Shown here one piece after another: positions 13,067 to 27,546 of a stretch of 64,000 nt of DNA. Numbering within the stretch: position 1 is the first letter of the stretch; every line of letters starts with the position of its first letter. The DNA is taken from the NCBI RefSeq assembly GCF_001715195.1, contig NZ_MDWE01000012.1:62001-126000 (forward strand), in the 5' to 3' direction. The notes under the pieces were generated by a model that saw nothing but the letters and a program-made list of their open reading frames with translations, did not search any database and was not told where the DNA came from. The translations under genes were made by a program, and so were the position numbers. The DNA comes from Rhodohalobacter halophilus (GTDB lineage: Bacteria > Bacteroidota > Rhodothermia > Balneolales > Balneolaceae).

Positions 13067-14782
13067 TCATATAAGGTAGAGGAGCGAGAACACCAATACG
13101 GTGAACAGTATTAAACTCATGACAACTTCCATTGCCGGGCTGTATCGAGTTGCTTCATTATTTCGGTCAGTGAACGGATTCAGCCAAGTCATCGGATTTT
13201 TAAACTTCTGTGTGAGGAATCTGGCGATATCCCAAATTTTATCTTCGACACGATCATAGAAGTTATCTACACCGTTCACAAAAACCTTTCGTGTGAGTGG
13301 AGCTGCTTTTCTGTAAAACCAGTCCACATCAAGCGCGATAATCAGCTCACCGGCAAGCTTTTTGCGCAACAGCCAGAATCCGGCAAAGGTCATCAAACTA
13401 ATTTGTGTAATCTCCACAAAGTGATACACCGTAAAGGGATTATAGTCATATTCGAAAGGGAGGTACATGTAAAGCGCTTGCGGATAGAGGCCATAAAAAA
13501 TACAGGCGAATGCCGCAATTCCCATCCCGATGTACATATTCTTCGGGATCGGCTTAACGTCAATATCGTTATCCTCCTTCCCGAACCAAGTGTAGTAGGG
13601 AAGTTTCAATCCAACACTCAGGAATGTGCCTACCGAAGCAAACAGGAGCATCAGCATTGCCATTTCGTTATGGGCATAGCCGGCTGCGCTAATCGTCATC
13701 GATTTACTGATGTATCCGTTAAAAAGCGGCAGACCTGAAATGGAAAATCCGCCTACGAGGTAGAGACCCAGAACATAAGGCATTTTTTTGGCGAGGCCGC
13801 CGAGATGCACCAGCTTGGAGGTGCCTGTTGCGTACAGAACAGCTCCGGTACTCATAAAGAGGAGTGATTTATAGAGAATATGGCTATAAGCGTGTGCCGT
13901 AGCCCCATTCAGTGCCATGTCGGTACCTATCCCGATACCGCACACCATAAATCCAACCTGACTGATAATGTGATAGGCCAGAATTTCGCGAATGTCTTTA
14001 CAGATTACCGCGTAAACAACGCCGTATATGGCCATGGCCGCACCGAACCAGATGAGTAATTCCCATCCCGGAAAAACACGTATCAAAACATAAACGGCGG
14101 ATTTGGTAGTAAAGGCGCTCATAAATACCGCACCTGTAATGGTTGCCTTCGGGTAGGCATCTGCCAGCCATGTGTGCAGCGGAATGACTGCCGCGTTGAT
14201 GGCAACACCCACAAGCATCAGCACATTGGCAATGGTGTAATTTTGTTCGAGGGACTCCACCATCAGCGAACCGGTGGTCATATAGTGCCAAATGATTCCG
14301 GCCAGGAGCAGTCCTCCGCCCAATATGTGATAGAGCAGATAGCGTGTACCGGCTTTATCGGATGCTTCTGTACGGTTCGCCCAGATCAACCAGGTGGAAC
14401 TGACGGCCATCAACTCCCAGAATATGATGAGCGAGAGCAGGTCGCCTGCGTACGTAACGCCCAAGGCACTTCCTGCATAAACCAGAGCGTTGATCTGCTG
14501 ACCAAGATCTTTGATATGCCAAGCATAGGTTCCCGCAACAAATGCCGTAATGGCAAAGATAATCCCAAATACACGGCTCAACGCATCCACTTCCATAACA
14601 ATAAGCTCAAAATTACCCAGAGATGCCGTTACGGAGTATCCGTCGGGACGGGTAAGTACAAAAGCAAGCGCAGCGATGGGGAATATTAGAAACGCTGAGC
14701 TCCTGATTTTTTGTGGAAGCAGCGAGAGCAGAACCGCTCCGATAATTAAAATGACACCCGGTATGGTTAAAATCTCAATCAT
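13067..14782 (-). CDS. Mrp/NuoL-type antiporter subunit, third D-like copy with C-terminal arm
   Basis: A 571-residue proton-pump subunit (proton_antipo_M family) with about 14 core helices. Expected channel residues are present: Glu in FWELMAVSS (helix 5), Lys in TTKSAVYVLIR (helix 7) and Lys in SHILYKSLLF. After the core come an amphipathic stretch beginning DVDWFYRKAAPLTRKVF, a charged linker and one last hydrophobic helix (SLILFTVLVFSLLYLI), an arrangement recalling the lateral helix plus anchor of NuoL. Last gene of the antiporter operon; its start overlaps the 70-aa gene by 8 bases. Confidence 0.85.
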   Translation of the reverse strand: MIEILTIPGVILIIGAVLLSLLPQKIRSSAFLIFPIAALAFVLTRPDGYSVTASLGNFELIVMEVDALSRVFGIIFAITAFVAGTYAWHIKDLGQQINALVYAGSALGVTYAGDLLSLIIFWELMAVSSTWLIWANRTEASDKAGTRYLLYHILGGGLLLAGIIWHYMTTGSLMVESLEQNYTIANVLMLVGVAINAAVIPLHTWLADAYPKATITGAVFMSAFTTKSAVYVLIRVFPGWELLIWFGAAMAIYGVVYAVICKDIREILAYHIISQVGFMVCGIGIGTDMALNGATAHAYSHILYKSLLFMSTGAVLYATGTSKLVHLGGLAKKMPYVLGLYLVGGFSISGLPLFNGYISKSMTISAAGYAHNEMAMLMLLFASVGTFLSVGLKLPYYTWFGKEDNDIDVKPIPKNMYIGMGIAAFACIFYGLYPQALYMYLPFEYDYNPFTVYHFVEITQISLMTFAGFWLLRKKLAGELIIALDVDWFYRKAAPLTRKVFVNGVDNFYDRVEDKIWDIARFLTQKFKNPMTWLNPFTDRNNEATRYSPAMEVVMSLILFTVLVFSLLYLI

Positions 14783-14987
14783 AGTAGTTGATGTCGCGGT
14801 TTACAATATTTTTAGCAATGAACTTGGCAAAGTAGATGATCACGATACAGCTTACAAAACCGAACAGCGCATAGAATGCAGGTATTGAGTTCCACCAGTG
14901 GCTGTCATAATCGGCCAGGTAGGTGAACTCCAGCACAAGCGTGACCAGAAACAGAATTCCTAATATGATCCAATGCCAGTTTTTCAT
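14775..14987 (-). CDS. Small two-helix membrane protein of the antiporter operon
   Basis: A 70-residue protein: helix 1 (about 5-24), a loop with two Trp and a His, helix 2 (about 34-56), and a C terminus ending DINYYD. It overlaps the preceding D-type gene by 4 bases and the next by 8, so it is translated as part of the operon. Small proteins with a similar ...(D/N)YYD end recur, as I recall, beside Mrp/Mbh-like clusters without a given name. A structural subunit at the junction between antiporter modules is the natural guess; unproven. Confidence 0.7.
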   Translation of the reverse strand: MKNWHWIILGILFLVTLVLEFTYLADYDSHWWNSIPAFYALFGFVSCIVIIYFAKFIAKNIVNRDINYYD

Positions 14988-16471
14988 GGTGATACAGAGT
15001 TAAAAAGTGATGTGCTGATTTGTGAAGCAAGATCGAAAAAGTTGAAAAACAGATTCGGGAAAAGGCCGAACAGAACAGAAAGTGTTGCCGTGACGATTAT
15101 CGGGACTACCATAAACGGCGAGGCTTCCCCATATTTTTCGAGGCCTTCCCCTTTTCTGAAGTACGCCCGGTGAATGATCGGGAAGAAGTAACCTGCATTC
15201 AGCAGACCACTTACAATTAATATGATTACAGGGATCATCATATCCCCCTCAAGCGAACCGGAAACAAGGAAAAATTTACTGAAAAATCCGTTGATGGGTG
15301 GGATTCCGGCCAGTCCCATCGACCCGACGACAAATGCTCCCATGGTCCAGGGCATCACTTTGGCGATCCCGTTCAGGTTACTGATGTTTTCCCGATGAAG
15401 GTTTACAATGATGGCACCGGCGCAGAAGAAGAGGGTAATCTTCATGGTAGCGTGTGCCGCAATGTGCATAATGCCACCCTGAATGCCGAGTGGAGTTAAG
15501 AGCGCAATACCTAATACAATGTAGGACAGATGCCCTACGGTTGAATAGGCAAGCCGGCGTTTGAGATTATCCTGCGCAAAGGCGATCAGTGATGCAATCA
15601 GAATTGTGGCACCGGACAGTACAATTAAAATTTCGTTGAAGCCGTAATCGCCCATTACATCCACGCCGAAGACGTAACCGACAACACGAAGTACGGCAAA
15701 AACACCCGATTTTACAACGGCAACTGCGTGAAGCAGTGAACTAACGGGTGTGGGAGCTGCCATCGCTGCAGGCAGCCAGCCGTGAATTGGCATAATCCCC
15801 GCTTTAACGCCAACTCCGCCCAAAAACAGGATAAACATCACCAGCATCATGTGGTAGGGAATGTCGGCATCACCGAGAATTCCTCCCGGTGTAAAATCGA
15901 GGGTTCCGGTATAGTAGTAAACCATTCCGGCTGCAGCAATCAGGAGAAGACCGGCTGTAAGCGTGAATGCCAGGTATTTCCGTCCGGCTTTAATGGCATC
16001 GTCCGTTTCGGTATGAATAACCAGCGGATAGGTAGCAAGAGTTAAAAGTTCATAAAAGACAATAAAAGTAAGCAAGTTACCGGAGAAGGCAATCCCGATG
16101 GTTGCAGAGAGACAGATAGCAAAACTTGCGTAGTATCTCGTCTGTTTGTGCTCTTTGTGTCCGCGTACATAGCCGATGGAGTAGAAGGAGGTGAAGATCC
16201 ATAGGCCGGATGCGATGACTGCGAAGAAAACTCCCAGAGGATCAGCGTTTAGTGCCAGCGGTAAACCCGGAGCCAGATCAAACAGATGGAGTGTAACACT
16301 CTCCCCATTCAAGGCTGATGGAAGCAGTGTCATAACCAGGCCAAACTTCACAAGTGCGGCAATAATTGTCCATGTCTCCCGAAGGTTGGGTTTGGATGAA
16401 CTCCACAGTATGAGCGGAACCGCTGCAAGCGATGATAAAATTGCTAATAAAGGTACAAGCGTAAGATCCAT
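14984..16471 (-). CDS. Mrp-type antiporter subunit D, second copy
   Basis: A 495-residue member of the proton_antipo_M family, about 14 helices. Helix-5 Glu in VFYELLTLATYP, helix-7 Lys in VVKSGVFAVLRVV, GWLPAAMAAPTPVSSLLHAV as the family signature, and a His/Lys pair in helix 10-12 (HIAAHATMKITLFF). Such subunits carry a proton or sodium half-channel. It lies 57 bases after the first D subunit and overlaps the 70-aa gene. Divergence from the first copy argues for distinct positions in one complex rather than recent duplication. Confidence 0.88.
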   Translation of the reverse strand: MDLTLVPLLAILSSLAAVPLILWSSSKPNLRETWTIIAALVKFGLVMTLLPSALNGESVTLHLFDLAPGLPLALNADPLGVFFAVIASGLWIFTSFYSIGYVRGHKEHKQTRYYASFAICLSATIGIAFSGNLLTFIVFYELLTLATYPLVIHTETDDAIKAGRKYLAFTLTAGLLLIAAAGMVYYYTGTLDFTPGGILGDADIPYHMMLVMFILFLGGVGVKAGIMPIHGWLPAAMAAPTPVSSLLHAVAVVKSGVFAVLRVVGYVFGVDVMGDYGFNEILIVLSGATILIASLIAFAQDNLKRRLAYSTVGHLSYIVLGIALLTPLGIQGGIMHIAAHATMKITLFFCAGAIIVNLHRENISNLNGIAKVMPWTMGAFVVGSMGLAGIPPINGFFSKFFLVSGSLEGDMMIPVIILIVSGLLNAGYFFPIIHRAYFRKGEGLEKYGEASPFMVVPIIVTATLSVLFGLFPNLFFNFFDLASQISTSLFNSVSP

Positions 16472-16528
16472 CTATTTTGTGTGTAATTAATATCTTATAA
16501 ACTGAATCTGATCAAAGTCATTTATTGG

Positions 16529-18010
16529 TTACATCGGAAATACATCAAACAGAATTCCCACAATGGCAGCATTTGCAAACCCAATCACAAAGAGTGCAAT
16601 TGCGAGGACAGATGTTGGAAACATCATGCTGAAACTCACCTCATTTCGCTCTGCATCGGCTGCCTCTTTCTGATCTTTCTTCGGATTCATCATATATACA
16701 TTTTCAAGAATTCTGAAGAAGTAGACTGCGTTGAGCAGCGAACTGATCAGAATTACAGCGAGGAAAATCCAGTTCTCATTATCAATGGTTCCAAGAGCGA
16801 GGTACCACTTGCTGAAGAATCCGGCAAGAGGCGGAAGGCCAACCATCGAAATGGCTGCAACGCTAAACCAGGCCATAGTCCAGGGATATTTTTTTCTGTA
16901 GGTGTCATCGAACAGGCTGATATCGGAGTGCCCCTCTTTCATCCGAAGGCTTCCGGCAATCAGGAACAGGCACGCTTTCATGACGGCGTGGTTGAGAACG
17001 TGGAGCAGTGCCCCGGCAAATCCAAGCGGATTGGCAAGGCTGAGCCCCATAATAATGTACCCGATCTGTGAAACACTACTGTAGGCCAGCATCCGCTTCA
17101 TTTCTGTTTGAGCGATAGCCATAATGGAACCGTAAAGAATACCGACGGCCGCCAGGCTTCCGATAATTGTGGTCATCGGTATCACAGCATCTGTAAGTTC
17201 AACCCCAAACAGGTAGAAAACGATACGGAAGAGAATATAGGCGGCAACTTTTGTGCCGATAGGTGCAATGAGTGCAGTGGAGCTGGATGAAGCGTAGGTG
17301 TACGAATCGGGCAGCCATCCGTGCATTGGGAAGAGCGCCGCCTTAACTCCGATACCGACCACCATCAAAATGAGAGCGGCAACCACAGACGTATCAGCTG
17401 CAAAGTTTGGCAGCATGGCCGCCATGTCAATAATATTTAGGGTACCGGTAATGGTGTAAAGGAAACCAACTCCCAACAGGTAGAGTGTACCGCCTGCAGT
17501 ACCGATTATCAGATATCTGAATGCGGCGTATGGGGCCGGCCGTGAACCAATGGCAATTAATGCATAACTGGCCAGTGAGGATATTTCAAGAAATACATAG
17601 AGATTGAAGAGATCGCCGGTCAGAATCATGCCGTTAAACCCGAGTAGTGCGAGCATCGCAAGCGCGAAATATGGCATCTCTTTCCCCGGATACTCCGTTC
17701 GGGCAATTTTACGAGAATGGATAAATACAAAAAATGCGACCGTATTGATCACCAGAATGAAGAAACCGGAGAGTCCGTCGTAAACAAATTCGATCCCCAC
17801 CGGGGGCTCCCAGCCGCCAAAAAAGTAGCGGATGCTACCCGTTTGAAGATAGGAGGCAAAGCCGTAGAGAGAGAGTACGGACGCAATACCGGACCCTAAA
17901 ACGGCAAGGGGCTGCGATGTGGATGGTCTCCACAGGCCGAATGCCGGAATCATAATGGCAAACAGTACAAATGTAAGGGCAATTAATGCGGGTAGGTGCG
18001 ACTCAATCAT
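16529..18010 (-). CDS. mrpD: Mrp-type Na+/H+ antiporter subunit D
   Basis: A 493-residue, about 14-helix subunit. Glu in YVFLEISSLASYALI (helix 5), PMHGWLPDSYTYASSSS, Lys in IGTKVAAYILFRI (helix 7) and HVLNHAVMKACLFL (helix 12 Lys) are the expected ion-channel residues. It follows the MrpC-like gene with a 4-base overlap, the standard C-D order, and is taken as the true MrpD. Confidence 0.9.
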   Translation of the reverse strand: MIESHLPALIALTFVLFAIMIPAFGLWRPSTSQPLAVLGSGIASVLSLYGFASYLQTGSIRYFFGGWEPPVGIEFVYDGLSGFFILVINTVAFFVFIHSRKIARTEYPGKEMPYFALAMLALLGFNGMILTGDLFNLYVFLEISSLASYALIAIGSRPAPYAAFRYLIIGTAGGTLYLLGVGFLYTITGTLNIIDMAAMLPNFAADTSVVAALILMVVGIGVKAALFPMHGWLPDSYTYASSSSTALIAPIGTKVAAYILFRIVFYLFGVELTDAVIPMTTIIGSLAAVGILYGSIMAIAQTEMKRMLAYSSVSQIGYIIMGLSLANPLGFAGALLHVLNHAVMKACLFLIAGSLRMKEGHSDISLFDDTYRKKYPWTMAWFSVAAISMVGLPPLAGFFSKWYLALGTIDNENWIFLAVILISSLLNAVYFFRILENVYMMNPKKDQKEAADAERNEVSFSMMFPTSVLAIALFVIGFANAAIVGILFDVFPM

Positions 18011-18384
18011 TGAATTTCTTCTAACAGTTCCTGTTCGTCGAGGGTACCGTATCGGTTATAGATGGCCATCAAAAGGGTAAAGGCAACACCCAGGGTTGCC
18101 ACACCAACAACAATGGCAGTAAGCATCAGTGTATGCGGCAGGGGGTTGAGATAGTTTGCAACCTGTTCAACCGGAATGTTTGCATCTCTTACGGGTACAG
18201 TTGCGTCCCATTTTGAAGCAATGGAGACAAAGTAGAGCACTACCGAGACCTGAAATATGGCCAGACCAATGGTTTTCTTTACCAAGTTCTTTTTAAATAG
18301 GATGCCATAGAGCCCCACGCATAGCAGAATTACCACAAACCAATAAGCGTAGTGGCCCAGAAAAAAATCAAGCATAATCTTCAC
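18007..18384 (-). CDS. mrpC: Mrp-type antiporter subunit C (NuoK-like)
   Basis: A 125-residue, three-helix subunit related to NuoK. Features include FKKNLVKKTIGLAIFQVSVVLYF, the segment after helix 1, and the LPHTLMLTAIVVGVATLGVAFTLL helix characteristic of MrpC. It overlaps the B-type gene by 17 bases and mrpD by 4. Confidence 0.9.
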   Translation of the reverse strand: MKIMLDFFLGHYAYWFVVILLCVGLYGILFKKNLVKKTIGLAIFQVSVVLYFVSIASKWDATVPVRDANIPVEQVANYLNPLPHTLMLTAIVVGVATLGVAFTLLMAIYNRYGTLDEQELLEEIQ

Positions 18385-18808
18385 CTTTTACCATGTTATC
18401 ATAAATCATTACCAGGATTGCCATGACGGCAAGGCCGATACCGACTTCAATGATGAGAATTCCCCAGTAACGAACCATTGCGGGTTCCATTCCTGTAAAT
18501 GGCAACAGTTCGTAATCCAGGAAATATCCACCCATAAGCATGGCTACCAGGCCTGTTGCAAAGTATATGATGACTCCGATTACAGCCAGGGGGGTAGTGG
18601 CAAACTCCTGAATTTGCAACCTTGAAACCCGGCGCCCGCCTGATATTCTGATTAATAAAACCGATGCGGCAAGAAGGGTTCCGCCCTGAAAGCCTCCGCC
18701 GGGGCTGTAGTGACCAAAAAAGATCACATACCAGCCAAAAAGCATGATGTAAGGTGTAAGAAGTCGGGACCCGAGCAGAACAATCGGGCTTTCATCCTGA
18801 TGTCTCAT
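18368..18808 (-). CDS. mrpB: Mrp-type antiporter subunit B
   Basis: A 146-residue MnhB-domain protein with four helices; GHYSPGGGFQGGTLLAASVLL is the family fingerprint. In classical Mrp this domain is MrpB; in Mbh order it corresponds to MbhF. Overlaps neighbours by 4 and 17 bases. Confidence 0.9.
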   Translation of the reverse strand: MRHQDESPIVLLGSRLLTPYIMLFGWYVIFFGHYSPGGGFQGGTLLAASVLLIRISGGRRVSRLQIQEFATTPLAVIGVIIYFATGLVAMLMGGYFLDYELLPFTGMEPAMVRYWGILIIEVGIGLAVMAILVMIYDNMVKGEDYA

Positions 18809-19107
18809 ACTACCCTCCGTCGGTTTCTCAGGATTAAAATAGTTATCAGGCCGGCTGTAAAAACCACAACCTGCTCACCAAACGTATCAATACTTCTGTA
18901 ATCGCCTAAAATAACGGTTACAATATTGGGTGTTTTGGCATCATTATATGCCTCTTGAATCACGTAGCTTCCAACAACCGTTGTGCCTGTGATGCTCTCC
19001 TCGGCATGCATCAGGTTATCCGGATCACCCCGGTATGGGAGGTCGCTGGCCGCATAGATTAAGACAGATGCGAATAAAATCAATATGATGATTTTTAGTG
19101 CTTTCAA
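18805..19107 (-). CDS. MbhE-like subunit (MrpA C-terminal segment as a separate gene)
   Basis: A 100-residue protein with an N-terminal helix, an exported loop (about 25-60) and a helix preceded by DYRSIDTFGEQVVVFTAGL. That segment corresponds to the last part of large MrpA proteins and to MbhE of membrane-bound hydrogenases. Its existence as an independent gene marks the split-MrpA organisation. Overlaps both neighbours by 4 bases. Confidence 0.8.
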   Translation of the reverse strand: MKALKIIILILFASVLIYAASDLPYRGDPDNLMHAEESITGTTVVGSYVIQEAYNDAKTPNIVTVILGDYRSIDTFGEQVVVFTAGLITILILRNRRRVV

Positions 19108-19349
19108 TCGTTTGAATGTCTTGTGGTTTGATAGATTACAACAACATATAGTACTCCGGATACACCGGCACCGATCACGGCTTCAGTAAATCCCACGTCG
19201 ATAGCGCCCATGGCTACAAAAAGAAGGGCCATCAAAAAGCTGAATACGGTAGTCATCACCACGGCAACCAGCAGGTCTTTCACCTCGAGGGCAACAATGG
19301 CCGAGATTAACAGAAATAGATAAATGACAAGCTCTAATTCCCAGATCAT
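19104..19349 (-). CDS. MbhD-like subunit (DUF4040, MrpA C-terminal helices)
   Basis: An 81-residue three-helix protein with FTEAVIGAGVSGVLYVVVI near the end, the signature of the DUF4040/MbhD region related to NuoJ. In classical Mrp it is fused within MrpA. Overlaps MrpG and the MbhE-like gene by 4 bases each. Confidence 0.83.
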   Translation of the reverse strand: MIWELELVIYLFLLISAIVALEVKDLLVAVVMTTVFSFLMALLFVAMGAIDVGFTEAVIGAGVSGVLYVVVIYQTTRHSND

Positions 19350-19675
19350 GATGTTTCTCCTCCTTTTTTATCGTCGTGAAGGAGTGGTTTCAGACCTTTT
19401 TTAAGCGCAGCTCTTGCAAGTGCGTGAGTACCGATGGGATTGGAGAGTGCAATAAAAAGGACAATTAAAAACAGTTTTCCACTGCTGAGCGTAAACCCCT
19501 CATAGATAATGAGTCCTACTATAACGAAGACAACTCCGAGTGTATCACTTTTACTTACAGCATGTGATCGTGAGTAAAAATCGGGTAATCTCAAGATCCC
19601 GATACTACCCACCAGCATGAAGATGATACCGAGCGATACAAACAGAATGGTGATAATGGATTGCGCTTCAAGCAT
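19346..19675 (-). CDS. mrpG: Mrp-type antiporter subunit G
   Basis: A 109-residue three-helix protein. GSIGILRLPDFYSRSHAVSKSDTLG is the MrpG/MnhG fingerprint, followed by LSNPIGTHALARAA. Overlaps mrpF by 8 bases. Ends in a charged tail rich in Lys and Asp. Confidence 0.92.
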   Translation of the reverse strand: MLEAQSIITILFVSLGIIFMLVGSIGILRLPDFYSRSHAVSKSDTLGVVFVIVGLIIYEGFTLSSGKLFLIVLFIALSNPIGTHALARAALKKGLKPLLHDDKKGGETS

Positions 19676-19943
19676 TACGTCTTACTTTAGGTGATGATAA
19701 ATATTTTGCGATGGCCAATACACCAATAAAGCCAAGAATGGCGTAAGCCAGGGTGATATCAATAAACATATCGATACGCCCGAACAGAAAGCCGATCAGG
19801 CAGACCAGAACAATGGTTTTTGTGGCAATGGCATTGGTAGCCAAAAGCCGGTCAAATAGGGTTGGCCCCTTCACAACCCTGATCAGCGGAACAGCGATAA
19901 TAATGGTGAGTACCACAGCACTGTATAGAAAAAAGTTTTCCAT
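19668..19943 (-). CDS. mrpF: Mrp-type antiporter subunit F
   Basis: A 91-residue three-helix protein with KGPTLFDRLLATNAIATK, the MrpF/MnhF motif, and an Asp in helix 3 (IDITLAYAILGF). Six bases separate it from mrpE. Confidence 0.92.
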   Translation of the reverse strand: MENFFLYSAVVLTIIIAVPLIRVVKGPTLFDRLLATNAIATKTIVLVCLIGFLFGRIDMFIDITLAYAILGFIGVLAIAKYLSSPKVRRNA

Positions 19944-19949
19944 TAAGAA

Positions 19950-20498
19950 TTAGTTTTTAGTCGTGATTTCAATATCACTGATTACCTGGCGCTCTTCCGT
20001 TTCAAAAAGTTTAAGTACTTCCCGCGGCATTTCGTCCGAAATAATCCCGGAATAAGATGATTCGTCAAGAGCGTGCACCAGAAAGTTGTCTCCGTCAATG
20101 TCTACGGTCAGTGTTCCGGGGGTAAGTGTGATGGAGTTGCCTAAGATCATTTTTGCGTGTGCACTCGGGAGATCTACTTTAAACGTAACCACACTCAGTT
20201 TTGTAGGAAGTGCGGGATTTGCGATCACTTTAACTACATGAAAACCTGCTACAATGATTTGATAAATCATCCAGAAAAAGTAGTAAACCGCTCTGAAGTA
20301 ACGCAGTTCTTTCAGGTCGTCCATGTCGTCTTCGAAAAAACGGTGCGTCTTAAGTTTGTAGTTGATAGCCATCACACCGGCTACGGAAAGCACACCCATG
20401 GTTAGATGCACTGCATCAAAAAAACCGCTCATAACCACCCAGAACAACATCAAAGAGATGAACGAGAGCGATAAACTATATAGCGAGAGCTTATTCAT
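19950..20498 (-). CDS. mrpE: Mrp-type antiporter subunit E
   Basis: A 182-residue protein with two N-terminal helices and a cytoplasmic domain containing LGNSITLTPGTLTVDIDGDNFLVHAL, the MrpE/MnhE fingerprint. It is the first gene of the operon. The order E-F-G-(A')-(A'/B)-B-C-D matches the first eight subunits of archaeal Mbh complexes rather than the classical A-G order. Confidence 0.92.
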   Translation of the reverse strand: MNKLSLYSLSLSFISLMLFWVVMSGFFDAVHLTMGVLSVAGVMAINYKLKTHRFFEDDMDDLKELRYFRAVYYFFWMIYQIIVAGFHVVKVIANPALPTKLSVVTFKVDLPSAHAKMILGNSITLTPGTLTVDIDGDNFLVHALDESSYSGIISDEMPREVLKLFETEERQVISDIEITTKN

Positions 20499-20820
20499 TA
20501 GTTAGCGTTAAAAAATTGATGACGTTTTGTTTTTCGGCCTATAAACTATCAAAAAGGTGATATCAACCGCAATAAAAATCGAACGGTTTAGGATTTGTTT
20601 ACAAATTTCAAAAAAACCAAGATTCGTTATATCCTTCAGTAAAATGTTTCTTAAATTTAGAGCTGAAATTGAAAAAGCACTTGAACGGGGATGTACAGTT
20701 TTCCTTCGTCTGAGGTTTAACTTGGGGAAGAATTTTGTATCTTTGCCACCTGAAAAAGAGGCTGCATTACGGCAGCGAAATAAAAGATTAAGTGCTCAAC
20801 ATTTTAATTAACCTGTTTGA
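20499..20820. promoter_or_regulatory. Divergent promoter region, Mrp operon and nuoLMN
   Basis: 322 bases separating mrpE (minus) from nuoL (plus). On the plus strand, TTTAAC (20716-20721), 16-base spacer and TATCTTTG (20738-20745) match the TAnnTTTG -7 element of Bacteroidota-type promoters and would start transcription about 65 bases before nuoL. An open frame here (20557-20811) is low-quality and read as non-coding. Confidence 0.5.
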
Positions 20821-22839
20821 ATGGAGTCACCTACAGCGCTTGTAAGTCTTATTGTTGGTTTACCGCTTCTCGGTTTTTTAATAAACGGGATTCTGGGCCT
20901 TTCATCAGATTCGTACCGATCTAAAAAAAGTGTAATTGGTACACTTGCCAACTTTGCGGTATTTATCCCTTTTTTAATCACACTCTACCTGTTTTTTAAC
21001 TTTAATCCGGAAACAGGAGCTCTGAATGCGAAGCTCTTTACCTGGATTGAGGCCGGCAGTTTTAGTGTCGATATTGCTTACCAGATCGATCAGCTCTCGC
21101 TGATTATGATGATGGTGGTAACCGGTGTCGGCTCACTGATTCACCTCTACTCGATCGGCTATATGTCGCACGATCCGGGCTTTTGGAAGTTTTTCGCCTA
21201 TCTGAACCTCTTCATCTTTGCGATGTTGAATCTGGTGATGGCAGACAATCTTCTCCTGCTTTTCCTCGGATGGGAAGGCGTGGGTCTCTGTTCGTATCTG
21301 CTCATTGGGTTCTGGTACACCGATATGAGTAAATCGGACGCCGCCAAAAAAGCTTTTCTATATAACAGGGTAGGGGATTTTGCATTTCTGATTGCAATTT
21401 TTGCCATTTTTGAAGCTGTAGGTAGTCTGAAGTTTGATGTGATTTTGGCAAACCTCGACGCATTTTCGGCAAGCTGGTCGTTCTGGGTTCCGTTCCTGAT
21501 GTTCATTGGGGCAACCGGTAAAAGCGCTCAGATTCCGCTATTTGTTTGGCTGCCCGATGCGATGGCCGGCCCGACTTCCGTCTCTGCCCTGATTCACGCG
21601 GCAACGATGGTTACATCCGGAATTTATCTGATTACCAGACTCTCACCAATGTATGTGTTGAGCCCTGAAGTGATGATGATTGTGGCTGTGATCGGTGCAC
21701 TTACAGCTATTGTGGCTGCAACAATAGCCATTACACAAAACGATATTAAAGGGGTTCTGGCCTACTCTACGGTTTCTCAGCTTGGTTTTATGTTCCTGGC
21801 ACTGGGTTCAGGTGCATTTACTGCTGCGCTTTTTCATGTGGTAACTCATGCATTTTTCAAAGCTTGTCTCTTCCTGGGTTCCGGTTCAGTTATTCACACC
21901 ATGGAGCATGTGGAGCATAAACTCCACGATGATGGAAAAGATGTTCATTTTGACCCGCAGGATATTCGAAATATGGGTGGTCTTCGAAAATATATGCCAT
22001 CCACCTACAAAACCTTTTTGATTGCAACGGTAGCCATTGCCGGAATTCCGCCACTGGCCGGATTCTTTTCAAAGGATGAGATCGTAATGCACGCCTTTAA
22101 TATGGGTTTTGGTGAGTTTGCCGGTGCGATGTACTTCATCCTTTGGGGTGTAGCCACAATTACTGCATTCCTGACCGCATTCTATATGTTCCGTTTAACG
22201 CTGACCACATTCCATGGCTCGTTTAAACTTCCGCAAAAAGTGAAAGGTGCAGAAAATGCAGAGTCATATCTGCACGAGAGCCCATCAACTATGACGATTC
22301 CGCTTTGGGTTCTTGCAGGGCTTTCCATTGTGGGTGGTTTTATCGGGATCCCGAACTTTATTTCAAAAACGTTCGGCGGCGACGGGCACATCAACTGGCT
22401 CCACGACTGGCTTTCGCCCATTGCATCTGATATTCCGCTCACGCTTTCAATTGCGGCGGAATGGGTTCTCATGATCTTTGCCATTGCAGTGGCTGTTGGT
22501 TCTGTTATGCTGGCTTTTAAAATGTATGGAAACGATCAGCAGGAGGAGTCGGATGCCAAAATCGCCAACCGGTTTGGTACTCTTTATCAAATCTGGAAGC
22601 AGAAGTATAACCTCGACGAAGCATACGAAGGCGCAGTGGTTCATCCCACGGTACGGTTTTCAGACAAAGTGCTGGCTGTATTTGACATGAAAGTTGTTGA
22701 CGGAATTGTAAATGCAGTAGCCGGAATTGTTCGTCTGATCGGCAGTCTGCTTCGATATATTCAAACCGGAATTACCACCAATTACGCACTCTTTCTACTG
22801 CTGGGCGTGATTTTGGTCCTCTCAATGATACTCTTTTAA
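20821..22839 (+). CDS. nuoL: NADH-quinone oxidoreductase subunit L
   Basis: A 672-residue, 16-helix proton-pumping subunit. LFLGWEGVGLCSYLLIGFW with helix-5 Glu, GKSAQIPLFVWLPDAMAGPTSVSALIHAATMVTSG with its Lys and His, and THAFFKACLFLGSGS are diagnostic. The region from about 590 to 640 forms the lateral arm, and ALFLLLGVILVLSMILF is the last helix. First of nuoL-M-N; no nuoA-K or nuoE/F/G genes are adjacent, so complex I genes are split between loci. Confidence 0.95.
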   Translation: MESPTALVSLIVGLPLLGFLINGILGLSSDSYRSKKSVIGTLANFAVFIPFLITLYLFFNFNPETGALNAKLFTWIEAGSFSVDIAYQIDQLSLIMMMVVTGVGSLIHLYSIGYMSHDPGFWKFFAYLNLFIFAMLNLVMADNLLLLFLGWEGVGLCSYLLIGFWYTDMSKSDAAKKAFLYNRVGDFAFLIAIFAIFEAVGSLKFDVILANLDAFSASWSFWVPFLMFIGATGKSAQIPLFVWLPDAMAGPTSVSALIHAATMVTSGIYLITRLSPMYVLSPEVMMIVAVIGALTAIVAATIAITQNDIKGVLAYSTVSQLGFMFLALGSGAFTAALFHVVTHAFFKACLFLGSGSVIHTMEHVEHKLHDDGKDVHFDPQDIRNMGGLRKYMPSTYKTFLIATVAIAGIPPLAGFFSKDEIVMHAFNMGFGEFAGAMYFILWGVATITAFLTAFYMFRLTLTTFHGSFKLPQKVKGAENAESYLHESPSTMTIPLWVLAGLSIVGGFIGIPNFISKTFGGDGHINWLHDWLSPIASDIPLTLSIAAEWVLMIFAIAVAVGSVMLAFKMYGNDQQEESDAKIANRFGTLYQIWKQKYNLDEAYEGAVVHPTVRFSDKVLAVFDMKVVDGIVNAVAGIVRLIGSLLRYIQTGITTNYALFLLLGVILVLSMILF

Positions 22840-22862
22840 ACGATTTTGTAGATTAGGTAAAT

Positions 22863-24482
22863 ATGGAGATCCTACTAAATATTACGATCTATCTTCCGCT
22901 ATTAGGTATAGCGGCAATACTGTTGATGAAGAACGAATCGGCTGTGAAATGGAGCAGTTTGGTGGTGACTACGGCTACGTTCCTGTTATCCCTTCCACTC
23001 TTCTTTAATTTTGATATTGCATCCTCATCCGTACCGCAATATGTGACGGAAGGCGGGGCAATTTTTGCCGGAATGGATGTTAAATATCTTGTCGGTCTTG
23101 ACGGACTGAGCATGTTGCTGTTTATGCTTACTACGCTCATGGGGCCCATTGTGATACTTTCATCCTGGAACTCCGTTACGAAAAGCCTTAAAGGATACTA
23201 TGCGATGCTGCTTCTGCTTCAGACGGCATCTCTCGGTGTTTTTGCCGCACTCGACCTGGTTGTGTTCTATGTGTTTTTTGAACTATCGCTGATTCCAATG
23301 TACTTCCTGATCGGAATCTGGGGCGGGAGTGACAAAATCCGTGCTACCATCAAATTTTTTATCTACACACTGGTGGGTTCGCTTATCATGCTTGTTGCAC
23401 TGCTCTATCTTGGCTTTCATGCCGGCGCAGCAATGGGGGGTGTAGACTTCACCGCTGACTGGAGATTTATTTCAAGTCCGGAATACACGATTGGTTTGGT
23501 TGAGCAGACATGGCTCTTTCTGGCATTTTCTCTCGCATTCTGTATTAAAGTGCCACTCTTCCCATTTCATACATGGTTGCCATATGCTCACACCGAAGCA
23601 CCCACTGCCGGTTCTGTCGTACTTGCGGCAATAATGTTGAAGATGGGAACGTACGGTCTGATTCGTGTTGTACTTCCCGCATTCCCGAATGCGTTCATGG
23701 AGTTTGCTCCATATATGGCCGTATTGGCTGTCATCGGAATTATTTACGGTGCGCTGGTGGCGATGGTTCAGAAAGATGTGAAGAAATTAGTTGCCTACTC
23801 ATCAGTAAGTCACATGGGGTTTGTAGTACTTGGAATTTTTGCTCTGAATGACATTGCAATGCAGGGCGCTATCATTCAAATGATTAATCACGGGTTGGCT
23901 ACCGGAGCTCTTTTCCTGATTGTGGGTATGATTTACGATCGCCGGCACACCCGAATGATTTCAGACTATGGCGGAATAGCAAAGCAGGTACCTGTATTTG
24001 CCGTCATGTTTATGATTGCAACTCTTGCATCTATCGGTCTTCCCGGGTTGAACGGATTTATCGGTGAGTTTTTGATTTTGAACGGATCATTTAGCTCGGC
24101 ACTCTATGCAAATAAAGTGTACGCCATTCTTGCCGCCACGGGTGTGATTCTTGCAGCAGTCTATATGCTCTGGATGTTTCAGCGTGTACTTTTTGGGCCA
24201 ATCACCAATGAAGAGAATAAAAAGCTGACCGACCTTAATATGCGCGAAATCGGTCTGTTGATTCCTCTTGTACTATTTATGGTGTGGATTGGAATTCGCC
24301 CGGTTGATTTTACACAGTATTCTGAAGAGTGGGTAGAAACTTTTATTACAACTTCTGAAGAGAAAAGCATGGCAGTGTTAGATCAGGCCGACATGAATGA
24401 GCTTCCAAACTGGACGACTAAAATCTACAATGTGGAAGAGCATCAGTCAGGTTCTCAATTTTTGGTAAATAAAACAGACTAA
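22863..24482 (+). CDS. nuoM: NADH-quinone oxidoreductase subunit M
   Basis: A 539-residue, 14-helix antiporter-like subunit. Helix-5 Glu in YVFFELSLIPMYFLIGIWGG, KVPLFPFHTWLPYAHTEAPT, Lys in MLKMGTYGLIRV and the helix-12 region MINHGLATGALFL are the expected proton-path features. It starts 23 bases after nuoL. Confidence 0.95.
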   Translation: MEILLNITIYLPLLGIAAILLMKNESAVKWSSLVVTTATFLLSLPLFFNFDIASSSVPQYVTEGGAIFAGMDVKYLVGLDGLSMLLFMLTTLMGPIVILSSWNSVTKSLKGYYAMLLLLQTASLGVFAALDLVVFYVFFELSLIPMYFLIGIWGGSDKIRATIKFFIYTLVGSLIMLVALLYLGFHAGAAMGGVDFTADWRFISSPEYTIGLVEQTWLFLAFSLAFCIKVPLFPFHTWLPYAHTEAPTAGSVVLAAIMLKMGTYGLIRVVLPAFPNAFMEFAPYMAVLAVIGIIYGALVAMVQKDVKKLVAYSSVSHMGFVVLGIFALNDIAMQGAIIQMINHGLATGALFLIVGMIYDRRHTRMISDYGGIAKQVPVFAVMFMIATLASIGLPGLNGFIGEFLILNGSFSSALYANKVYAILAATGVILAAVYMLWMFQRVLFGPITNEENKKLTDLNMREIGLLIPLVLFMVWIGIRPVDFTQYSEEWVETFITTSEEKSMAVLDQADMNELPNWTTKIYNVEEHQSGSQFLVNKTD

Positions 24483-24486
24483 TACT

Positions 24487-24777
24487 ATGGAGCCACTCAC
24501 AAAAGAAGAGATTGAGTCGCATTTGAAAGAACTGAGTAACTGGTCGTTCAAAGATGATCAGATCGGAAAAGATTTCAGTTTTGACAACTTTAAAGATGCA
24601 CTCGCTTTTATGGTGAAGGTTGGTTTTGAGGCTGAAGATCTTGGGCATCACCCCAACTGGAGTAATGTTTACAACTCCGTCTCTATTCAGCTTAATACAC
24701 ACGATGCAGACAACAAGGTTACGAAGAAAGATATTCAACTCGCAAAGGCGATAGACAAGATTTACAAAAAGAACTGA
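24487..24777 (+). CDS. Pterin-4a-carbinolamine dehydratase
   Basis: A 96-residue PCD/DCoH-family protein. Catalytic features: the FKDALAFMVKVGFEAEDLGHHPNWSNVYNSV region with the HH pair followed by PNW, then the THDAD segment that carries the last active-site residues. It dehydrates 4a-hydroxytetrahydrobiopterin formed by aromatic amino-acid hydroxylases. It sits 4 bases after nuoM and 1 base before nuoN and must be cotranscribed with them, an unexpected partner. Pterin synthesis genes occur at 40-41.5 kb. Confidence 0.92.
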   Translation: MEPLTKEEIESHLKELSNWSFKDDQIGKDFSFDNFKDALAFMVKVGFEAEDLGHHPNWSNVYNSVSIQLNTHDADNKVTKKDIQLAKAIDKIYKKN

Positions 24778-24778
24778 A

Positions 24779-26218
24779 ATGAACTATTTGCACGATATTC
24801 AATCCTTTTTGCCGGGTATAGTTGTTGCGATAACCGGTTTAACCGCTATTCTTATAACAGCTTTTAAGAAGAGTACCGGCCTGGTTTACAACGTATCATT
24901 GGCCGGTCTGGTTGTGGCTACAATATTAGCGATCCAATCACTTTTTGGTGAGGCCGGCACTTCCTTTTCCGGAATGATTGTATATGGAGGGCCTGCTGCA
25001 TTCGGCGGAGTGATTATAACTCTCGGTACGCTGTTGTCTCTGATCTTATCCCGGGAATATTTACAGTCAAAAGGGCTGGAGTCTGGCGAGGTGTACGGTA
25101 TGATGCTTTTTGCAACCACCGGTATGCTGGGGCTGGCTGCATCCAACGATTTGATCAGCCTGTTTGTAAGTCTTGAGACCATGTCTATTAGTCTTTATGT
25201 ACTGGCCGGTTTGTGGTACTCCAAAAACTATGGTGCAGAGTCTGCACTCAAATACTTCTTGCTTGGTGCATTTTCGACCGGATTTTTACTCTACGGAATT
25301 GCCTTGATCTACGGAGCAACCGGTCATACCAACTTCATGGAAATTGCTGCTGCCGCAGATACTTCTCTGCTGTTTTTAGGAGGAGTGGGGATGCTATTGG
25401 TAGGGTTGTTTTTTAAAATATCTGCAGTTCCATTCCATATGTGGACTCCGGACGTATATCAAGGAACTCCCACCACACTTACCGGATATATGGCAACAGC
25501 AGGTAAGGCAGCCGCATTTGTTGCCTTTATCCTCGTTCTGTCCAGAATGCTTTCAGGATCAGAAACAGGCGAATGGAGTCATGTAATTTCCGTTGTGGCT
25601 ATTCTAACTATGATTGTCGGTAATCTGATTGCTCTTGCGCAGGACAATGTAAAGAGAATGCTTGCATACTCCAGTATTGCTCATGCCGGCTATTTGATGG
25701 TTGGCCTTGCGGCAGGTACGGCAGCAGGCTACAGCGGTGTGCTTTACTATCTGTTTGCATACACACTGATGAACATAGGTGCTTTTGGAGTTATTGCGTT
25801 TTATGAAAGAAATAAAGAACTCGATTTTACGGAGATCGACAGTTATGCAGGACTGGGATATAAAGTTCCTGCCATGGGTGTAATGCTCTCAATATTTCTC
25901 TTCTCTCTGGCCGGAATTCCCCCGTTTGTAGGCTTTGTCGGTAAGTACTATGTGTTTGCTGCCGCAGTTCAGGCAGACATGGTTATGTTGGCAATTGTAG
26001 GTGTACTCGCGAGTGCGGCCAGTGTTTACTACTATCTGAGAGTGATGGTATATATGTACTTCAAAGAGGCGCACAAAGAGTACTCTCTCAAATCTCCCGG
26101 AATGCTGTTCAAGCTTCTATTGATCCTGCTTGCGGTTCTGACGGTTTATTATGGAGTGGAGCCGGTACTGCCAACGACCGGTCTTTTCGAGCTTCTTACA
26201 TCTTTTAGCTACGTGTAG
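24779..26218 (+). CDS. nuoN: NADH-quinone oxidoreductase subunit N
   Basis: A 479-residue, about 14-helix subunit. Helix-5 Glu in LETMSISLYVLAGLWY, KISAVPFHMWTPDVYQGTPT with its Lys, Lys in ATAGKAAAFVAFIL, and the helix-12 region YLFAYTLMNIGAFG are typical. It ends the operon and is followed by a terminator. Confidence 0.95.
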   Translation: MNYLHDIQSFLPGIVVAITGLTAILITAFKKSTGLVYNVSLAGLVVATILAIQSLFGEAGTSFSGMIVYGGPAAFGGVIITLGTLLSLILSREYLQSKGLESGEVYGMMLFATTGMLGLAASNDLISLFVSLETMSISLYVLAGLWYSKNYGAESALKYFLLGAFSTGFLLYGIALIYGATGHTNFMEIAAAADTSLLFLGGVGMLLVGLFFKISAVPFHMWTPDVYQGTPTTLTGYMATAGKAAAFVAFILVLSRMLSGSETGEWSHVISVVAILTMIVGNLIALAQDNVKRMLAYSSIAHAGYLMVGLAAGTAAGYSGVLYYLFAYTLMNIGAFGVIAFYERNKELDFTEIDSYAGLGYKVPAMGVMLSIFLFSLAGIPPFVGFVGKYYVFAAAVQADMVMLAIVGVLASAASVYYYLRVMVYMYFKEAHKEYSLKSPGMLFKLLLILLAVLTVYYGVEPVLPTTGLFELLTSFSYV

Positions 26219-26248: not shown

Positions 26249-26282
26249 TAAAAAGGCTCTCACTTGAGAGCCTTTTCTGTTT
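26249..26282 (+). terminator. Intrinsic terminator of the nuoLMN operon
   Basis: AAAAGGCTCTC (26251-26261) pairs with GAGAGCCTTTT (26266-26276) around loop ACTT, with the T-tract in the 3' arm. It lies about 30 bases past nuoN. Confidence 0.85.
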
Positions 26283-26423: not shown

Positions 26424-26810
26424 ATGAAGAAAGATTTCTACGAACTGACTTACATTCTGAATCCCGTTCTCGACGATGAGAAGTTTTCAGAGCTTGTAAG
26501 TTATGTGAACAAACTGATTGAAGATAACGGCGGTGACGTCGTTGAAGTTGATGAGTGGGGTGTTAGAAAGCTCGCCTACGATATCGACAAGAAAAGTTCC
26601 GGTTACTACGTGAACATGTACTTCAATGCTCCGGCCGATGCGATTAATGTGGTTGAGCGAAATATGAGAATTCATGATGACATCATGAGGTATCTCACGC
26701 TCAAGTACGATCCGAAGATGACTCGTTACTATGAACTCAGAAAGAAAGGCGAAGTGCCAACTATTTTTGAAGAGGTAGAGGAAGAGAACGACGATAACGA
26801 CGACGAATAA
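26424..26810 (+). CDS. rpsF: 30S ribosomal protein S6
   Basis: A 128-residue S6: YELTYILNPVLDDEK start, GGDVVEVDEWGVRKLAYDI core strand, and a very acidic C-terminal tail (EEVEEENDDNDDE), like the glutamate-tailed S6 of other bacteria. First gene of rpsF-rpsR-rplI; the ssb gene often found between S6 and S18 is absent. Confidence 0.97.
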   Translation: MKKDFYELTYILNPVLDDEKFSELVSYVNKLIEDNGGDVVEVDEWGVRKLAYDIDKKSSGYYVNMYFNAPADAINVVERNMRIHDDIMRYLTLKYDPKMTRYYELRKKGEVPTIFEEVEEENDDNDDE

Positions 26811-26830
26811 ATCAAATTAGGGAATAGATT

Positions 26831-27082
26831 ATGATTAACAATCCATCGCATCCAAAGAAAGGGCACCTTAAAAGTAAAGAGTGCAAGTTTACTAAAGCAG
26901 GTATTGAATATATCGACTACAAGCAGACTGATGTTTTAGAGCGCTTTATGAACGATCAGGGCAAAATACTGCCTCGCCGGGTAACGGGTACCAGTGCACG
27001 GCATCAGCGAATGCTCTCCAGAGCTGTAAAAAGAGCACGATTTTTGGCTCTGATTCCATATGTAACCGAAAACATGCGATAA
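26831..27082 (+). CDS. rpsR: 30S ribosomal protein S18
   Basis: An 83-residue S18 with [50 protein letters not shown], the family core, here named only by its opening [12 protein letters not shown] and closing [10 protein letters not shown]. It pairs with S6 on the 30S platform. A single Cys remains near the N terminus, so a zinc site is unlikely. Confidence 0.97.
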
Positions 27083-27099
27083 GACACAGATATTAGATT

Positions 27100-27546
27100 A
27101 TGAAGCTTATTTTAAAAGAAGACGTAGATAAATTAGGTTCTGCCGGTGATCTAGTTGACGTGAAACCCGGTTACGGACGAAATTTTCTGATCCCAAAAGG
27201 GAAAGCAGTTCTGGCTACTGAAGGTGCCATTCGACAATATGAGCACCTCAAACGAGAAGCAGCTTTGAGAGCTGAACTTTCTGTAGAAGCAGCCAAAGAA
27301 TTGGCGCAACAACTCGAGAACACCTCCGTTACAATTCCTGTAACAGTTGGCGAAGACGAAAAAATTCACGGCACGGTTACAAATATCCAGGTTGCAGAGG
27401 CTCTTGAAGAGCGGGATATTTTGGTTGACCGACGTAAGATTTCGCTTGATCAGGATATCAAAACATTGGGTGAATACACCGCAACTGTTGAAGTTCTTGG
27501 AGAGCTTAAGCCACAAGTTAAGGTTTGGGTTGTTAAAGAGGACTAA
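27100..27546 (+). CDS. rplI: 50S ribosomal protein L9
   Basis: A 148-residue L9: N-terminal domain with LGSAGDLVDVKPGYGRNFLIP (key VKPGYGRNFL), the long connecting helix (about 40-75) and the C-terminal RNA-binding domain. Last of the r-protein trio; dsbD begins 43 bases later. Confidence 0.97.
   Translation: MKLILKEDVDKLGSAGDLVDVKPGYGRNFLIPKGKAVLATEGAIRQYEHLKREAALRAELSVEAAKELAQQLENTSVTIPVTVGEDEKIHGTVTNIQVAEALEERDILVDRRKISLDQDIKTLGEYTATVEVLGELKPQVKVWVVKED

Follow-up and report, generated by a model that had tools for sequence, protein, structure and literature searches.

Genes for subunits of complex I enclose a gene for pterin-4a-carbinolamine dehydratase (PCD) in Rhodohalobacter halophilus, and its position raises the question of whether this pterin enzyme takes part in respiration or only shares a site with respiratory genes. 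We analyzed a stretch of 64,000 nucleotides around this gene (the whole stretch is here called the window) and compared it with relatives across the class Rhodothermia and beyond. The reading that we favor, with a probability of about two-thirds, is that the gene encodes a catalytic housekeeping PCD that is carried in the nuoLMN cluster without being a subunit of complex I or a helper on which complex I depends. The features that matter for the argument are the following.

13067 to 20498, minus strand: Mrp-type Na+/H+ antiporter operon, divergent from nuoL (profile matches)
20821 to 22839, plus strand: nuoL (TIGR01974, 682.7 bits)
22863 to 24482, plus strand: nuoM (TIGR01972, 583 bits), with 4 bases between its end and PCD
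24487 to 24777, plus strand: PCD, 96 amino acids (PF01329, NF002018, matches to solved structures)
24634 to 24732, plus strand: catalytic motif E50-x3-H54-H55-P56-x5-Y62-x9-H72-x9-D82, read in the translation of PCD
24779 to 26218, plus strand: nuoN (TIGR01770, 410 bits), with 1 base between PCD and its start
26251 to 26276, plus strand: terminator-like hairpin of 11 pairs, about 30 bases 3' of nuoN (consensus match only)
26424 to 27546, plus strand: rpsF-rpsR-rplI, the conserved right flank, by which the site can be recognized where complex I is absent

The original prediction, that 24487 to 24777 encodes a PCD, held up well. The 96-residue product matches the full length of the Pfam model Pterin_4a (PF01329; model positions 1 to 91 of 91) at 104.8 bits, against a cutoff of 26 (E = 2.6e-30), and NCBIfam NF002018 (4a-hydroxytetrahydrobiopterin dehydratase) at 108.7 bits, with a cutoff of 108; 11 solved PCD/DCoH sequences match it as well, the best being 4c45 (1.2e-19). 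It is the only PCD copy in the genome. Its translation carries the pattern E-x3-H-H-P-x5-Y-x9-H-x9-D, which we take, from the PCD literature, to be the catalytic motif. The window PCD has this motif intact, as do 105 of the 106 PCDs of the class that were tested (the sole exception being G031), including all 90 nuoN-linked copies scored (the linked copy of G030 was left out) and all 54 of those from genomes that lack phenylalanine hydroxylase (PAH; PF00351). Given the family match and the intact motif, the window PCD is probably an ordinary, catalytically competent enzyme. In its full-length match and motif it resembles PCDs of the PhhB/PCBD type (PF01329, COG2154), from which it differs in having no hydroxylase partner in the genome. 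The closest database relative, 86% identical, comes from a record labeled Chitinophagaceae (LKNA01000001.1; L035); because the next four relatives belong to Balneolaceae, this is probably a mislabeled Balneolaceae genome.

Where the original prediction spoke of a gene inside the nuo operon, the location can be stated more narrowly. PCD does lie inside the distal cluster of antiporter subunits, nuoL-nuoM-PCD-nuoN (20821 to 26218, with the hairpin at its end), and these are the only nuo genes in the window; nuoH is on another contig (G000:C8), flanked by apparent nuoA to nuoG genes, so the complex I genes are split. The proteins adjoining NuoH on that contig match the NuoA, NuoE, and NuoG families. 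An open reading frame just 5' of nuoL (20557 to 20811), considered as a candidate nuoK, matched nothing in Pfam or NCBIfam. The 4-base and 1-base gaps proved exact, and from this spacing PCD is probably transcribed and translated together with nuoLMN, a layout that suggests the co-expression with complex I genes that had been proposed.

The arrangement is not specific to this strain. Our class-wide sample comprised 108 genomes from 19 families, each rated 90% complete or better, with nuoN called at E ≤ 1e-90. Profile searches found PCD in 107 of the genomes and nuoN in 97, and in 91 of these 97 PCD immediately precedes nuoN on its strand, across 16 of the 19 families and with 29 to 332 bases between the two profile matches; such conservation excludes chance neighbors. 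Of the 58 relatives in a closer sample, 50 gave a PCD match and 56 a nuoN match (E ≤ 0.001, paralogues included), and some of the misses are contig ends, as in G014, where no PCD matched and the contig stops just 5' of nuoN, and G017, where nuoN begins at base 21 of its contig. In the class-wide sample, a single genome (G011) gave no PCD match and was left out as evidence: its sole nuoN match at E ≤ 1e-90 is of a longer second type, and it has two NuoH genes and approximately 390 contigs, so its lack of the nuoLMN-PCD stretch may reflect a gap in the assembly. In all three genomes of family f8, PCD and nuoN are apart.

Elsewhere in our sample of the phylum, PCD was found in 66 genomes of other classes, 58 of them also with a listed nuoN, and in none of these 58 does PCD lie within 1 kb of nuoN. 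With 91 linked genomes in the class and none among the 58 outside it, the linkage is a trait of this class. Because 16 of 19 families are linked and the site lacks PCD in other classes, we infer that PCD would have entered the nuoM-nuoN interval when the class was young and been inherited there since. A tree of PCD groups the unlinked f1 copies with the linked f1 copies, except for the long-branched G031, and places G096 with f10; with few alignment columns and many weak forks, it is too short for the deep forks. As a separate observation, G202, G237, and G146, all from outside the class, have PCD in divergent orientation close to where a nuo operon begins (L165:13706-14317, L166 near 13963, and L167:14085-14405), which may be another kind of association with complex I genes.

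In the complex I genes of Rhodothermus marinus, the NhaD and PCD genes reportedly lie between nqo13 and nqo14 and are co-transcribed. The arrangement has been known from one species since 2005: the complex I genes of R. marinus with nhaD and pcd were described by Melo et al. (2005, BBA 1709:95-103), as cited in PMC8063116, and this citation was the only mention of PCD among complex I genes that our literature search returned. The window is a further member of this published arrangement. PCD again lies between nuoM and nuoN, and two other genomes (G059 and G062) have exactly the order nuoL-nuoM-antiporter-PCD-nuoN; unlike R. marinus, the window has no antiporter between nuoM and PCD and instead has an Mrp operon divergent from nuoL. 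What is new here is that the linkage is conserved throughout the class.

The original prediction had left a link to respiration unexplained, and a necessary link is not supported by comparison of lineages in which one of the two partners is missing. Eleven of the 108 class genomes lack nuoN (E ≤ 1e-90), and all 11 also lack NuoH, which was present in all four of the other genomes searched; every one of the 11 has PCD. In 8 of them, all in the window's own family, Balneolaceae, PCD immediately precedes rpsF and points the same way, followed by genes of the size of rplI and dsbD in the order seen in the window. Judged from this gene order, nuoLMN was removed around PCD, which stayed at its old site. 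One of the 8 (G097) keeps PCD there with its motif intact and lacks complex I, PAH, MoaC, and MoaA altogether. Conversely, nuoL, nuoM, and nuoN are present and nuoM is joined to nuoN with no PCD between them in G028, G038, and G046: the only PCD of G028 is a deeply divergent paralogue elsewhere that misses the full motif, G038 has a motif-bearing PCD at another locus, and a profile search of G046 (90% complete) found no PCD. This double dissociation is also new. An obligate subunit or assembly factor is rejected from both sides, as PCD was not lost with complex I and the nuoLMN cluster occurs without PCD inside it. Because lineages that lost one partner kept the other, PCD is probably a neighbor of the complex I genes and does not itself belong to complex I, and a dedicated complex I role appears unlikely. 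Separately, we note that complex I has been lost in several Balneolaceae genera (L064 to L070; no NuoN or NuoH), in which the site 5' of rpsF holds PCD and a divergent PF16980 antiporter.

A weaker form of the respiratory idea casts PCD as an accessory protein or assembly factor, either for complex I alone or for complex I plus a Na+/H+ antiporter, by analogy with Raf2. According to PMC5859369, Raf2 is a PCD-like Rubisco assembly chaperone that is encoded in Rubisco operons and described as an inactive PCD. Alpha-carboxysome clusters also encode a PCD-like protein, whose absence is reported to have been without effect in a heterologous host. Like both proteins, the window PCD has the PCD fold and a gene that lies in an operon for a large complex; Raf2 is a precedent for the recruitment of this fold as assembly factor of the client in whose operon it is encoded. 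The linkage in most nuoN-bearing genomes, the persistence of PCD in 55 linked genomes without PAH, and the recurrence of a sodium/proton antiporter beside PCD would all fit. However, PCD is kept in all 11 sampled genomes without complex I, G028, G038, and G046 have complex I without a linked PCD, and PCD adjoins nuoN in none of the 58 genomes of other classes. Moreover, Raf2 is described as inactive, whereas the motif is intact in all 90 linked copies tested, on which ground we reject a Raf2-type inactive PCD in the window, and the presumed client is dispensable. We therefore hold such a factor to be unlikely; if a respiratory role were true, it would be a second case of the PCD fold being recruited to a large complex.

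The role named in the original prediction, recycling of tetrahydrobiopterin as the usual partner of PAH, finds no known partner in this genome. PF00351 had no match in the window genome (97.8% complete), which refutes this role here unless an unrelated pterin-dependent hydroxylase exists, and it was absent from 57 of the 108 class genomes and from 56 of the 107 with PCD. Across the class, PAH is present in 15 of 16 genomes with an unlinked PCD (the exception being G097) and in 36 of 91 with a linked PCD (Fisher p = 5e-5), although the unlinked genomes represent a handful of lineages and thus a small effective sample, and by our estimate the contrast would be far weaker per independent lineage. 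Both counts speak for a PAH partnership, yet as an account of the window gene it is improbable. The contrast is suggestive only: read literally, PCD would be kept either by PAH or by its linkage to complex I, and this would favor a complex I link.

MoaC is absent from the window genome and from 43 of the 108 class genomes in total, and 22 class genomes, the window genome included, have PCD and lack both PAH and MoaC. For linked genomes in this group, the median NG86 dN/dS of PCD was 0.096 (0.04 to 0.29; 21 usable pairs from 20 genomes), compared with 0.286 in linked genomes with PAH (137 pairs), 0.186 in linked genomes with MoaC only (85 pairs), and 0.391 in unlinked genomes with PAH (11 pairs), in a comparison whose pairs are non-independent and whose divergence is unequal between groups. 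Purifying selection on PCD in genomes without PAH and MoaC is strong. The gaps of 4 and 1 bases had invited a further idea, that the gene is a passenger whose 3' end helps to start translation of nuoN and whose protein is unimportant, but a dN/dS of about 0.1 with an unbroken catalytic motif and the retention of PCD where nuoN is gone make this very improbable. A role in molybdenum cofactor (Moco) metabolism, listed for the family in PMC3223725, is hardly credible, since the window genome lacks both MoaC and the MoaA C-terminal domain, which refutes it here unless there is another route to the cofactor, and that domain was found in none of the 22 genomes with PCD but without PAH and MoaC (the window genome and 21 others), while both positive controls matched.

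We return to a housekeeping PCD carried at this site as the preferred reading. Its chemistry would most likely be the dehydration of 4a-hydroxy-tetrahydropterins. Where PAH is present, PCD could serve it; in genomes without PAH and the Moco pathway, PCD would have to act on another pterin, perhaps, more speculatively, a 4a-hydroxylated tetrahydropterin or folate that arises by oxidation. The gene stayed at its site where complex I was lost, and elsewhere complex I was retained with no PCD separating nuoM from nuoN. Two considerations count against this reading: linkage across most of the class suggests some benefit of co-expression, and the linkage to complex I might stand in for PAH in keeping PCD. 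A tentative possibility for the Balneolaceae that lack PAH and Moco is that PCD, active and strongly selected, performs an undescribed third function connected with the energized membrane, for example, repair of pterins or folates oxidized by respiration or setting up of the module of complex I and Na+/H+ antiporter. Such a role would explain why the PCD gene accompanies nuoLMN as well as antiporters of the NhaD or Mrp type. That 22 genomes have PCD without either recognized pterin-using partner pathway is likewise new, and they offer a clean setting for PCD function outside aromatic hydroxylation in a widespread family.

The Na+/H+-antiporter-like gene that recurs as a neighbor of PCD varies in kind and position. 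In 49 of 90 linked genomes, nuoM is followed directly by PCD, and in 37 the two are separated by a transporter that resembles the PF16980 protein of G062; of the remaining 4, the stretch is cut in two (G058 and G074) and another transporter is present in two, matching NhaD in G107 and CitMHS/ArsB-like in G060. The name NhaD for the PF16980 proteins rests on the parallel with R. marinus, and NCBIfam gives them no name. Among the 8 Balneolaceae genomes that lack complex I and have PCD in place, 7 have a PF16980 transporter divergent from PCD, and the eighth (G097) has NuoL/NuoM-like genes and small open reading frames there, arranged like the Mrp operon of the window; G096, also without complex I, retains the antiporter-PCD pair. 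By family, the transporter in the slot between nuoM and PCD is of the PF16980, NhaD (TIGR00775), or CitMHS/ArsB/MamN-like type (L103:925-2319, L124:792-2207, and L077:5385-6968). Because different families hold different types, these sequences suggest that the complex I cluster has exchanged its ion antiporter repeatedly. The members of the window's own Mrp operon, assigned by profile, are MNHE, MrpF, MnhG, MbhD, MbhE, MnhB, chain-4L, and three Proton_antipo_M proteins. This operon has three separate large NuoL/M/N-like subunits (571, 495, and 493 amino acids), and its MbhD/MbhE-like small subunits are split.
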